A stretch of DNA of 52,371 bases from Flavobacteriales bacterium (GTDB lineage Bacteria > Bacteroidota > Bacteroidia > Flavobacteriales_D > Crocinitomicaceae), in the NCBI GenBank assembly GCA_947470515.1, contig CANITF010000021.1, positions 1 to 52,371 on the forward strand, written 5' to 3'. Below, piece by piece: positions 29,098 through 32,991 of the stretch. A program made the position numbers and the translations under genes. Position 1 is the stretch's first letter; every line of letters begins with the position of its first letter. The notes beneath the pieces were generated by a model. That model saw only the letters and a list, made by a program, of their open reading frames with translations. It searched no databases and was not told the DNA's origin.

Positions 29098-29523
29098 ATG
29101 CGGATCCTACTTGTAATTATTTTAACTCTTGAAACTTTATTTGTTTGCTCGCAGCAGATTGATTTAAAAGACCGAATGGTACAGTCATTTTTAGATAGTT
29201 CAAAGTCAGATGTAATTAAATCAAAACGAAGGTTAATGTTTAAAAAATCAGACGTTAATGAAAGGGTTGGCCCTGTTAAATCTACCTTTGCTGGATTGAT
29301 GTTTTTGTATCAAAATGTATTTTCTGAGCAAATAAGTGCTTCCTGTATATATGAAATAAGCTGTTCTGAATATACAAAAAGAGAGATTGAAAAATACGGA
29401 TTATTTATTGGATCAATTAAAGGATTTCATCAATTGATGCATTGTACTCATGGAGCGATGGAAGAAGTTCCACCTTATATGAAATCCAGTTATTCTGAAA
29501 AAATTAAAAACAGTGTTGAATAA
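29098..29523 (+). CDS. yidD: YidD-like protein with a signal peptide, 141 aa
   Basis: The C-terminal half (about 62-118) matches the YidD family, which helps YidC insert membrane proteins: LMFLYQNVFSEQISASCIYE, then SCSEYTKREIEKYG and GFHQLMHCT. It keeps the three family cysteines (of CxY, CS and the RC motif), though the usual RC is HC. Unlike ordinary YidD (about 70-90 residues, cytoplasmic face), it has an N-terminal signal peptide (MRILLVIILTLETLFVCSQ) and a 40-residue linker, so it is predicted to be exported. It heads an operon with two overlapping genes for membrane proteins. Confidence 0.8.
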   Translation: MRILLVIILTLETLFVCSQQIDLKDRMVQSFLDSSKSDVIKSKRRLMFKKSDVNERVGPVKSTFAGLMFLYQNVFSEQISASCIYEISCSEYTKREIEKYGLFIGSIKGFHQLMHCTHGAMEEVPPYMKSSYSEKIKNSVE

Positions 29524-30295
29524 ATTCAAATTGATTTTAATTCTATGCCCCTTTCAAACTTTGTTTGCTCAGGTTGATACTTATTATTTACAGCATTTAT
29601 CAGAAAAAAGCTTAAAAGTTGAGTACTTAGCATATTTACAAAAAGTCGAAGCCTCTGAAGATTCCTTGTCTTATTATTTATCTAAATATTATTTCCAGTA
29701 TGGTAATGACAGCTTATTTATAAGAAGCGCTTTAAAATCAAAGGAGATTATCAGGCAAGATACTACTTTATTAGTTCACTATTCAAAGTCCTTTTTAAAC
29801 CCACTTGCTCATAATAATAATGATTGGTTTAGCACAATATTAGATACCACTTTGTTGGTTAATGAAGAATTGAAACAACTGAATTTAGTTTATAATTTAT
29901 CCCAAAAACCTCTTAAAGAAGCTAATTTACCACTTCAGCTTCAACATGATTATAATTTATTTTATAAATCGACTAAAAAAAAATCAATAGTTGCTGCTGT
30001 TTTTTCAACAATAATTCCAGGTTCAGGAATGTTGTATTTAAACAAACCTAAAGCATTTGCAAGTAGCTTTGCTATCGTTGGAGGGTTAGGCTATCAAACT
30101 TTTGAATCATATCGCATTTTAGGATTAAATCACCCATTAACAATTATTAATGGTGCTTTTTTCACGGGGTTTTATCTTGTAAATATTATTGGATCCTATC
30201 TAGAAGTCAAGAAACATCAAAAAGAACAAAAAAAACAATTTCTAATTCATGCTTCAACGTATTATACTGACACTTATCCTTCTTCTCTTTTTTGA
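29513..30295 (+). CDS. exported membrane protein of unknown function (IPGSG type), 260 aa
   Basis: Opens with a signal peptide (LNKFKLILILCPFQTLFAQ) and a helical, polar region to about 150. It then has KKKSIVAAVFSTIIPGSGMLYLN (about 154-176) and two membrane segments (about 180-197 and 213-232). The PGSGxxYLxKPKA pattern is also seen in membrane proteins of the DUF5683/TM2 sort; I cannot assign a function. The start is uncertain: GTG 29513 overlaps the stop of the yidD-like gene by 11 bases, and TTG 29516 is an alternative. Its product is a paralogue of the next one. Confidence 0.7.
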   Translation: MLNKFKLILILCPFQTLFAQVDTYYLQHLSEKSLKVEYLAYLQKVEASEDSLSYYLSKYYFQYGNDSLFIRSALKSKEIIRQDTTLLVHYSKSFLNPLAHNNNDWFSTILDTTLLVNEELKQLNLVYNLSQKPLKEANLPLQLQHDYNLFYKSTKKKSIVAAVFSTIIPGSGMLYLNKPKAFASSFAIVGGLGYQTFESYRILGLNHPLTIINGAFFTGFYLVNIIGSYLEVKKHQKEQKKQFLIHASTYYTDTYPSSLF

Positions 30296-31067
30296 AAAAT
30301 TAAGTAGTCAAAACCTTTATTCTGATTCTTTACTTTACTTTGAGACTGAGATTTTTTATTCCGTAGTTGACTCTGTGGAACTAAAAAAGATTCAGAAGAT
30401 TGATTTTATCTTGAAATCTGATTCACTTTATGGACAAATTTTGAATGAGATAAGGAGAGTAAATTTCAATTCATTACCTGAAACTATTAAGAGTCGATTT
30501 CTGTGGAATGCTTCTTTGATTTCATATATGAATGACACACCAGATTTAGCATTTCTTTATTGGAAAAAATATCAATCCATCAGCTTAGACACTAGCATTG
30601 AATGTCAATTAATTGGTTATTTAACAAGCTCAGAACGTGATACAAGTATTAATCGCCATTTATATTCAAGATTAGCTAAAAACGATAGTCTTTTTATCAA
30701 ATTCGAGGCAGAACTTAATAAATCAATCAAATTAAAAGGAAATAATTTAAAAAAAGTAAGTTCATTTATTGTTCCAGGCTCAGGATTAATTATCAACGGA
30801 AATATTGGAAAAGGTCTAGTTTCCTTAAGTCTGAATACTGGAATTATTTTGCTGGTGCGTTATTTGATTTTAAGCAATGCTTGGGGTAATTCAATTTTAT
30901 GGGGCACTAACTTAATCGGCAAATTCTATCTAGGCAATTATCGACTAACTTTAAAAGAAATTGAAATAAAAAATCTGTATAAAAAAAGAATGCGCACCGA
31001 AAAAAGTGCGCATATTCTTAATGACATTTTGGGAAAATACCCGCTAAATTTAAAACTAACGAACTAA
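30249..31067 (+). CDS. paralogue of the preceding IPGSG membrane protein, 272 aa
   Basis: Same plan as its upstream neighbour: signal peptide (LQRIILTLILLLFFEKLSSQ), a helical region to about 170, then KKVSSFIVPGSGLIINGNIGKG (about 171-192) and membrane segments about 193-210 and 217-235, ending in a basic tail. It overlaps the upstream gene by 47 bases in a different frame, so the two are probably translationally coupled. Its last codons overlap the stop of the convergent gene by 12 bases and contain that gene's terminator. Function unknown. Confidence 0.7.
   Translation: MLQRIILTLILLLFFEKLSSQNLYSDSLLYFETEIFYSVVDSVELKKIQKIDFILKSDSLYGQILNEIRRVNFNSLPETIKSRFLWNASLISYMNDTPDLAFLYWKKYQSISLDTSIECQLIGYLTSSERDTSINRHLYSRLAKNDSLFIKFEAELNKSIKLKGNNLKKVSSFIVPGSGLIINGNIGKGLVSLSLNTGIILLVRYLILSNAWGNSILWGTNLIGKFYLGNYRLTLKEIEIKNLYKKRMRTEKSAHILNDILGKYPLNLKLTN
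30981..31012 (-). terminator. terminator of the convergent gene, inside a coding sequence
   Basis: TGCGCAC (30991-30997) pairs with GTGCGCA (31006-31012). On the minus strand a T-run follows (from 30981-30987). It ends the gene at 31056-32798 but lies within the 3' end of the plus-strand gene at 30249-31067, so those bases serve both. Confidence 0.75.
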
Positions 31068-32798
31068 CTCAATTTTCCCAATATAAGCGTCTTCAACTTG
31101 ACCAGCTTGTGTAAACATTCCTATTCCAAGGAATACAGGCGGACATAGACAAGTTGCAAATATCCAAGGAGCAATATGTCTTTTTCGAGAAATTAAATAG
31201 AATTCGTCATTAAATACTCTAATATCTGTAGCTGAACATCTTTTCTTTTCAGATTTTTTTGTTTCTTCTTCATTTATACGAACATTTTCCTTCTCGTTTT
31301 CACCGGTTTCTTTATCAAAAACACCATACTCCATTTGATCAATATATTCGGCACTGTTTTTCTTTGTTTTCTTAGTCTTTTCTTCAGCGTCTGCCTTAAA
31401 TCTCGATGAATAAGATACATAATAATTGTTTTCATCTTCAATCACGCGTAAGTCATAAATATTCCAACCACCAAAGACAGCTTTTCTATCAATATTAGAA
31501 CTCCAAATTATATCACCTTCTGAACTTAATTTAAACACTGTAACATTGCTTTTAGCACACTCATAAACAGTTCGACATGTTGTTCGTCCGTTTGCATCAG
31601 TCGTACAAACTTGATAAGAATAATTGTCCATTTTTGAGCAAAATACAATCATATTTCCTTTATCATCAACCTTTATTTGCTCAATTACAAACAAATTAGA
31701 CAGTGCATCTTTATCCTTTTCCGCCTCTGCAGCTGCATTTTTCTTTTTAGAATTTGTTTTTAATTTATCCTCTTCATCTGTTTTAAATAATTCGTCTAAT
31801 AAAGCTTGATCAAAATAAGTATACACCATTTCTGAAACTTCAAAAGTCTTTGGATTTAATTCACGATAACAAAAACCATGAGTCCTAATCCCTAAAGGAT
31901 CTTTTTTGAAATCACTAAAGAATCCTAATATCTTCACTTTATTGTCAATCTCAACTACTTTAACATTAAATAAACTAGTGTTTTTATCGTTCATGTCAAT
32001 CATTTCAATATCACCGCTTTCGATTGATAAAATTGAAACAAAAAACTCGTATTTATACTCCACAGTTTTATAGAAAAGCCCAGCACGCTTCTCTCCTGCT
32101 TTTATACTATAAGTTTCATTGAAATAAAAATTATCGTTGTTATCCAACATATAGTTCTCGATTGCGAAAACATCCTCGTTTTGAATACCTGCTGGAAGCG
32201 GCATATCTATTTCACTTTTAACTAATTCTTCCAATTCTAAATCAAAAACTGTATAAATGAATTGAATTTTGTTTGTCTCACTTTCTAACCTAGAAAGCAC
32301 TAATTTCGATTTATTATTAGTAATCGTTGGGAATACATTTTCTCTTTTAGAATCTTTTGGAATGGTCATTACTTTTTTCATTTTAACGACCTTGTCTAAA
32401 TTCAAAGAATAAGATTCAGCAAAAATTTTGAGTTCAGTTTTACTTTCTTCTGTATAAAAAATAAATATCTTTTCATCTATGAATTTGATCTGCGCCTTCA
32501 ATTTGTCGCCTAATTCATTCACTCTTATTTTGTTGTTTTTATCTGCAATGACCAACGAATTAACTTCTTTCATTGAACTTTTATCAAAAACTCCTATCCT
32601 ATTGATGACAACTTCCTGTTTCTTATTCTTCGATTGAAATTCAACATAAATATTTTTTTCAGTTTCACCTATAAAGGTATTTATGTAACCGTCTTTATTT
32701 AATTTAAGGGTCATCTTATCTGAAAAATTCACTTTCATGTCTTGAGCTAGAAATAAGTTGCCCCACAATAATAAAATAGCTGGTAATAATAGTTTCAT
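31056..32798 (-). CDS. exported protein of unknown function, 580 aa
   Basis: ATG 32798 gives a clean signal peptide (MKLLLPAILLLWGNLFLAQ); in-frame starts further upstream (to 32876) would add a polar leader of 26 residues and are rejected. The body is rich in beta-strand-like segments (FDKSSMKEV, YTVFDLELEEL, VVEIDNKVKILGFF, VFDKETGEN), reminiscent of a beta-propeller that reads out a series of values, with a lysine-rich insertion near 345-360. A Cys-rich stretch (TDANGRTTCRTVYECA) lies at about 398-413, and the C-terminus has a hydrophobic, Cys-containing stretch (ATCLCPPVFLGIGMF). Family not recognised. It converges on the IPGSG operon with a 12-base overlap. Confidence 0.7.
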   Translation of the reverse strand: MKLLLPAILLLWGNLFLAQDMKVNFSDKMTLKLNKDGYINTFIGETEKNIYVEFQSKNKKQEVVINRIGVFDKSSMKEVNSLVIADKNNKIRVNELGDKLKAQIKFIDEKIFIFYTEESKTELKIFAESYSLNLDKVVKMKKVMTIPKDSKRENVFPTITNNKSKLVLSRLESETNKIQFIYTVFDLELEELVKSEIDMPLPAGIQNEDVFAIENYMLDNNDNFYFNETYSIKAGEKRAGLFYKTVEYKYEFFVSILSIESGDIEMIDMNDKNTSLFNVKVVEIDNKVKILGFFSDFKKDPLGIRTHGFCYRELNPKTFEVSEMVYTYFDQALLDELFKTDEEDKLKTNSKKKNAAAEAEKDKDALSNLFVIEQIKVDDKGNMIVFCSKMDNYSYQVCTTDANGRTTCRTVYECAKSNVTVFKLSSEGDIIWSSNIDRKAVFGGWNIYDLRVIEDENNYYVSYSSRFKADAEEKTKKTKKNSAEYIDQMEYGVFDKETGENEKENVRINEEETKKSEKKRCSATDIRVFNDEFYLISRKRHIAPWIFATCLCPPVFLGIGMFTQAGQVEDAYIGKIELVR

Positions 32799-32991
32799 AG
32801 TAATTTGAGGATAATTTAAATTTTTATAAATGTACATTTTTTTTTTCGTATGAAATTGATTACTAAAAATAAGCATTTTTTTTTACTCAAAATGAACTGA
32901 ATTTATTCGAAAAACAGAAATTGATTTAAGAAAATTGTCTGTATTTTGATAATGAGGTAATTGAACCTAAAACTTAAACTAATTGTTTGAC

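Follow-up and report, generated by a model that had tools for sequence, protein, structure and literature searches.

The window analyzed here, a stretch of 52,371 nucleotides from a Flavobacteriales bacterium (assembly GCA_947470515.1, contig CANITF010000021.1), contains three overlapping genes on its forward strand. The first (29098..29523, ATG start) codes for a protein of 141 aa which, based on its open reading frame (ORF) and on Pfam and NCBIfam matches, we assign as a putatively exported YidD paralogue and call sYidD. The second gene, TMa (29513..30295, 260 aa), begins with a GTG codon that lies inside the sYidD gene. The third, TMb (30249..31067, 272 aa, ATG start), codes for a paralogue of TMa with an IVPGSG motif and a hydrophobic hairpin. 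According to the ORF coordinates, sYidD and TMa overlap by 11 bp and TMa and TMb by 47 bp. A sequence-only reading of this DNA had given the same coordinates, frames, and overlaps for the trio; it had also ascribed an IPGSG motif to both membrane proteins, which is correct for TMa (IIPGSG) and not for TMb. A fourth gene (gene 4, 31056..32876, reverse strand) is convergent with TMb, with an overlap of 12 bp between the two 3' ends, and codes for a predicted exported protein of about 580-606 aa.

The YidD Domain of sYidD

Ordinary YidD is a small bacterial protein that aids the entry of other proteins into the inner membrane, and Yu et al. reportedly found in 2011 that the protein from E. coli promotes this insertion. 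YidD has been described as a putative insertion factor, and in vitro transport and cross-linking indicate its interaction with the Sec translocon (PMC8082313). In E. coli, yidD sits in an rpmH-rnpA-yidD-yidC-trmE cluster (PMC10502375). The genome studied here also codes for an ordinary YidD (contig C37, 92.3 bits), and neither rnpA nor yidC is present within 3.2 kb around this gene.

The sYidD protein scores above the curated cut-offs of the YidD families (PF01809: 43.9 bits, cut-off 27; TIGR00278: 49.9 bits, cut-off 40). Its hydrophobic N-terminus ends with ...FVCSQQ and makes a plausible signal peptide by eye. Gln 19 is invariant in all 29 aligned sYidDs, and signal peptides of Bacteroidota are often cleaved at Gln. 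Using a lenient home-made heuristic, we found signal-peptide-like starts in 54 of 61 sYidDs and 2 of 29 ordinary YidDs, as well as in 50 of 58 TMa and 49 of 55 TMb proteins; unlike the ordinary YidDs, the exported proteins were partly scored as stop-to-stop frames and therefore match this heuristic more easily, and some of the misses occur because start codons are uncertain.

As the sequence-only reading had noted, the mature sYidD of the window keeps three cysteines (C83, C89, and C116), the first two of which form a C-x5-C motif. All 61 exported forms contain this motif; 33 of them have the third cysteine and 28 have lost it. A disulfide pair located outside the cytoplasm would be compatible with this pattern. 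We retained ordinary YidDs only if they contained C-x5-C, and therefore this feature is not a test on the ordinary proteins. The window sYidD lacks the RCxP ... GGyDPVP tail that is seen in the consensus of 29 ordinary YidDs, and because of this we treat it as a member of an exported subfamily with a YidD domain rather than as an ordinary YidD. Comparison of consensus sequences shows that the RCxPW...DPV tail is altered in the exported forms, and therefore the activity of sYidD need not equal that of ordinary YidD. In a second group of loci, mostly from other classes, the ordinary tail is replaced by a highly conserved stretch (DGdNCPF.PsCS ... DRFtRD.N).

A tree of YidD domains splits the 61 exported from the 29 ordinary sequences by a single branch with a support of 100/100; this tree is unrooted and based on 77 columns, and the tool warned of few columns and long end branches. 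The ordinary YidDs in this tree are all from the order of the window, with L025 and L029 left out of 31 loci; a moment calculation included 24 of the 29. Two bins (L058 and L054) bear the names Actinomyces viscosus and Chitinophaga pinensis. Their trio genes are nearest to Flavobacteriia-type sequences on the tree, and these bins may be misnamed.

The structural model of sYidD is of low confidence (pLDDT 72, pTM 0.44) and places a hydrophobic helix at residues 59-80. With this weak model as a query, Foldseek returned no solved structure at all, and a second structural look gave no match, with Z scores that were middling at best.

TMa and TMb

The AlphaFold2 model of TMa is confident (mean pLDDT 90.5, pTM 0.79). 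Behind a signal-peptide-like start, it consists of a TPR-like helical domain (approximately residues 23-132), the IIPGSG bend, a hydrophobic hairpin, and a long charged C-terminal helix. In a structural comparison, TPR proteins feature prominently in the top rows, with Z scores of at most 7.7, below the level that the tool considers safe; Foldseek returned no solved fold for this model at E <= 0.001. Searches by sequence found no convincing solved relative of sYidD, TMa, or gene 4. Pfam TPR_2 scored over its cut-off in one of seven scanned TMa/TMb homologues, a distant TMa homologue, and the window TMa gave no match to Pfam TPR models. We rejected the assignment of TMa and TMb to a known family, as neither window protein matches a Pfam or NCBIfam family over the cut-off.

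The proposal that TMa and TMb are paralogues is borne out by hhalign. Deep profiles (58 and 55 sequences) align with a probability of 99.9% and an E value of 1.8e-30 over 304 columns, which is nearly the whole length; with only the five nearest homologues, the alignment reaches 80% over 73 C-terminal columns. We calculated the mean charges that flank the hairpin (TMa: +3.0 before, +1.3 after; TMb: +0.05 before, +2.2 after). By the positive-inside rule, the positive charges on both sides of the TMa hairpin are not easily reconciled with a TPR domain in the periplasm and a two-helix hairpin behind it. A three-helix reading, in which the PGSG stretch also crosses the membrane, would ease this topology problem.

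Conservation of the Trio

The sequence-only reading had made its proposal depend on conservation of the trio in other genomes, and searches that start from different genes agree that the trio is indeed conserved. In 61 of 61 nonredundant loci examined in the GTDB phylum Bacteroidota, which is more than chance would give, sYidD is followed by a TPR/PGSG protein (fused to it in one case), mostly with the second paralogue behind. Among 60 near relatives, including the genome itself, five contain a TMa homologue and the same five contain a second YidD. A second YidD match was also found in four other near relatives, either as a frame of about 70 aa (G025, G026) or as a piece at a contig end (G027, G033). 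The two short second YidDs (G025:C83:140126-140317 and G026:C1:556481-556675) occur in genomes that have no TMa homologue and represent another kind of duplicate. Searching named genomes with sYidD patterns identified 27 loci. Three of their contigs are identical to those of G003, G009, and G034, and each of these was included a single time in the counts. TMa adjoins sYidD in all 27 loci and TMb is present in 25; in the remaining two the contig ends at this place.

We also searched 296 genomes of the phylum with a TMa profile that is free of any YidD content. All of the best 30 loci, including the window, contain a YidD-like frame, which is directly upstream of the TMa homologue in 29 cases and fused to it in one, and 27 contain a second PGSG gene. 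Thirty-two loci were fetched with flanks, consisting of the 29 non-window loci of the best 30 plus G132, G289, and G068, which were already known as two-YidD genomes when they were added; G060 was left out. These loci show the arrangements Y-T-T (28 loci), Y-T (three loci), and the fused form (one locus), on one strand throughout.

All 31 genomes in which TMa matched strongly encode at least two YidDs, versus 11 of 265 others (Fisher 4e-33); since the genomes are interrelated and many come from few families, this figure gives a direction and not an exact probability. A strong match was defined by E <= 2e-10 (31 genomes), a threshold that was set after the list was seen. The next entries below this threshold are G289, with two YidDs and a Y-T locus, and G060, with one YidD and a TMa match that covers 46 positions (E 3.7e-10). 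A further 81 genomes gave weaker matches to TMa (E 3e-10 to 1e-3), only seven of which have two YidDs, and many of these matches span little beyond the PGSG motif. Two of the 11 two-YidD genomes without a strong TMa match were followed to their loci, which are of the Y-T type in G289 and of the Y-T-T type in G068.

The overlaps between the genes are conserved as well. TMa and TMb overlap in 27 of 27 measured loci by 23-53 bp, with 47 bp in 12 of them, and the overlap between sYidD and TMa is kept in 27 of 29 loci. In G167, a single frame of 400 aa comprises YidD, TPR, and PGSG parts, with the YidD domain (57.9 bits) at residues 35-87; this genome also contains an ordinary YidD. Since both parts are in one chain, they must be in one place. 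As a single case from one draft genome, this fusion is modest evidence. In L120 (6654-7121) and L127 (9168-9653), a lipoprotein-like gene immediately precedes the fused or two-gene form. A PEGA domain scores over its cut-off in the gene from L127, and the gene from L120 looks similar by eye. Viral origin or spread of the trio was rejected, as a TMa scan of viral contigs returned no relative. Seven plasmid records gave short matches to the fusion protein, all of them confined to its YidD domain.

A Possible Envelope Unit

Genome comparison makes the proposal that the three genes act together well supported. We consider it an evenly balanced proposition that sYidD, TMa, and TMb form one unit of the cell envelope that acts from the periplasmic side in the handling of exported or membrane proteins. 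The sequence-only reading had suggested one complex. This suggestion is strengthened by the conserved overlaps, the strong co-occurrence, and the YidD-TPR-PGSG fusion; the export of sYidD, the side of the membrane on which it acts, and direct contact within a complex are our inferences. The further suggestion of that reading, assembly of envelope proteins from the periplasmic side, is plausible from the YidD family name and the predicted export.

Such a unit could have emerged when a YidD paralogue gained a signal peptide. The sYidD protein would then reside on the periplasmic face of a membrane by way of its hydrophobic helix. TMa and TMb would be exported paralogues, and in both a TPR-like domain in the periplasm would precede a membrane hairpin of the PGSG type. 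The two hairpins could keep sYidD in place at the membrane, with clients or partner proteins binding to the TPR-like domains. Working from the periplasmic side, the unit as a whole may then serve in the insertion, folding, or quality control of exported or membrane proteins. Client handling of this sort would be the most likely job of the unit and is also the weakest step of the proposal, suggested by analogy only. The extended claim that an exported YidD and a TPR-hairpin pair make up a hitherto undescribed periplasmic-side counterpart of YidC/YidD, which inserts, folds, or polices envelope proteins across Bacteroidota, strikes us as doubtful.

Neighboring Genes and Alternative Readings

Neighbor counts are based on frames of at least 90 aa, and the flanks are shorter at contig ends. 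Of the 29 first-group loci, 23 have a member of the gene 4 family in the neighborhood of the trio. The two are tail to tail within 200 bp in 19 loci and tail to tail at approximately 0.8 kb in two; in L069, gene 4 is on the same strand as the trio, and in L055, it is on the other side. Two further first-group loci end before the position of gene 4 would be visible. Gene 4 from the window matches no Pfam family over the cut-off. Its family is broad, as 35 of 60 relatives contain matches and G034 contains three further stretches, and strong relatives are found in genomes without the trio, for example in G032 and G026. For this reason we rejected gene 4 as a core part of the system. Two overlapping frames make up gene 4 in L041 (5611-7316), which indicates either a frameshift or a sequencing error.

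A barrel-like gene is near the trio in 14 of 29 first-group loci according to clustering and in 12 according to direct comparison, and a MORN/trypsin-like protein is encoded near the trio in 11 of 29. All 11 members found of this trypsin-like protease contain the motif GNSG[GS], and one matches Pfam trypsin. In L047, L054, L057, L060, L065, L068, L055, and L061, a barrel-like exported protein of approximately 270 aa and a MORN/trypsin-like protein of approximately 550 aa are encoded near gene 4. No trypsin-like protease is encoded beside the trio in the window. The protease was rejected as a core part because matches, mostly to the protease domain, occur in 57 of 60 relatives. Since gene 4 has relatives where the trio is absent and the protease domain is widespread, we regard these neighboring genes as accessories.

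Genes for LemA and TPM-domain proteins lie downstream of the trio in 20 of 32 second-group loci (L113-L141). In L041 (1015-2839), a distant locus, LemA and TPM-domain genes are part of a gene run just upstream of sYidD. The Pfam names of these genes were checked in L041 and L118. This is the only neighbor link that we found in both groups of loci. An sppA mutant of Flavobacterium columnare that suffers envelope stress is reported to show raised LemA and TPM-domain genes (PMC13236525), which is a loose hint at envelope homeostasis. In L119 (8884-10695), TMb is followed by genes for an ACT-domain and a DUF711 protein, and each of these clusters occurs in 19 loci.

These neighbors raise the question whether the trio, instead of acting as a general factor, is dedicated to a single client or secretion step, for example gene 4 with the barrel-like gene and the MORN/trypsin-like protease, or the LemA-TPM pair. 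The presence of gene 4 near 23 of 29 loci in three arrangements, the additional presence of the barrel-like gene and the protease in several of these loci, and the proximity of LemA/TPM in 20 of 32 loci and in the distant L041 are all consistent with this reading. However, the accessories differ between the two groups of loci as the trio remains constant, no accessory is universal, and strong gene 4 relatives exist without the trio. We view a dedicated client as rather unlikely.

In 22 of 32 loci, a gene that resembles an acyl-CoA dehydrogenase by eye is located upstream of sYidD at a distance of at most 1.2 kb; in L127, such a gene is convergent. This link may reflect inherited synteny. It could also speak for a trio that acts as an envelope complex on lipids or membrane structure, with a lipid-binding or membrane-perturbing sYidD that is placed by TMa and TMb at the inner or outer membrane. 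The acid- and Arg-rich stretch that replaces the ordinary tail in second-group sYidDs could in this case be a binding or active site, and yidD has reportedly been counted with haemolysin genes in some surveys (PMC7011549). On the other hand, the link to the acyl-CoA dehydrogenase-like gene is limited to related genomes and absent beside the window trio, and we recognized no lipase motif or fold in sYidD, the model of which is weak and matches no solved structure. Action of the trio on lipids or membrane structure appears unlikely.

It is quite improbable that sYidD is not exported and that its N-terminal stretch is a membrane anchor for work on the cytoplasmic face, like that of ordinary YidD, with TMa and TMb facing the cytoplasm: the positive charges around the TMa hairpin would fit cytoplasmic flanks, and the window sYidD keeps three cysteines as ordinary YidD does, but the frequent signal-peptide-like starts of sYidD compared to ordinary YidD, and of most TMa and TMb proteins (by the same lenient heuristic), the invariant Gln 19, and the loss of the third cysteine in 28 of 61 exported forms argue against it.

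Comparison with Known Systems

None of the matches listed from open-licence PMC papers points, in its title or the opening of its abstract, to a system with an exported YidD. This result agrees with the statement in the sequence-only reading that no system of this make-up had been described. This exported YidD subfamily and its fixed membrane partners of the TPR/PGSG type are real and conserved and, as far as we have searched, undescribed. To our knowledge, ordinary YidD has no dedicated partner gene, which is part of the reason why its mode of action has been hard to pin down. The fixed partners of sYidD, fused to it in one genome, provide a handle on what the YidD domain binds, and sYidD itself provides a handle on whether this domain can work from either side of a membrane. 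If the periplasmic-side unit is confirmed, it would constitute a new envelope machine in a major bacterial phylum, and some genes annotated as "membrane protein insertion efficiency factor YidD" would code for a different, exported protein.

TMa and TMb resemble the DUF5683 (PF18935) and TM2 (PF05154) families in that they share a PGSG/PGLG bend between hydrophobic stretches, and several TMa/TMb homologues give sub-threshold matches to these families. The window TMa and TMb match neither family. For DUF5683 (cut-off 26.7 bits), the best scores are E 0.011 in one of five near TMa homologues and 23.8 bits in the best distant homologue. For TM2 (cut-off 27.9), they are E 0.09 in one of five near TMa homologues and 14.2 bits in one distant homologue. 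Using hhalign, TMa/TMb align with the DUF5683 protein from the same genome at 91.5% over 80 columns. However, this true DUF5683 protein is encoded by a separate gene, all matches are below the curated cut-offs, and TMa and TMb contain an additional N-terminal TPR-like domain. Two TMa homologues also match the LIC11435 family (NF047756) weakly (E about 0.03, 13 bits), far under its cut-off of 380 bits. A further comparison is with TPR proteins of the envelope, for which BamD and PilF are examples of solved folds. The N-terminal half of the TMa model is TPR-like, and the TPR proteins in the top structural rows score Z 5-7.7, below the safe level of the tool; the C-terminal membrane hairpin of TMa is a difference to these proteins.

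The closest known relative of sYidD is ordinary YidD. Both contain the same domain over the curated cut-offs of PF01809 and TIGR00278, as well as a C-x5-C motif with SCS and a preceding hydrophobic helix, and the window sYidD also shares the third cysteine. Unlike ordinary YidD, sYidD contains a signal-peptide-like extension and an altered RCxPW...DPV tail, is encoded next to fixed TPR/PGSG partner genes, falls on its own side of the 100/100 branch, and is present in addition to the ordinary copy.
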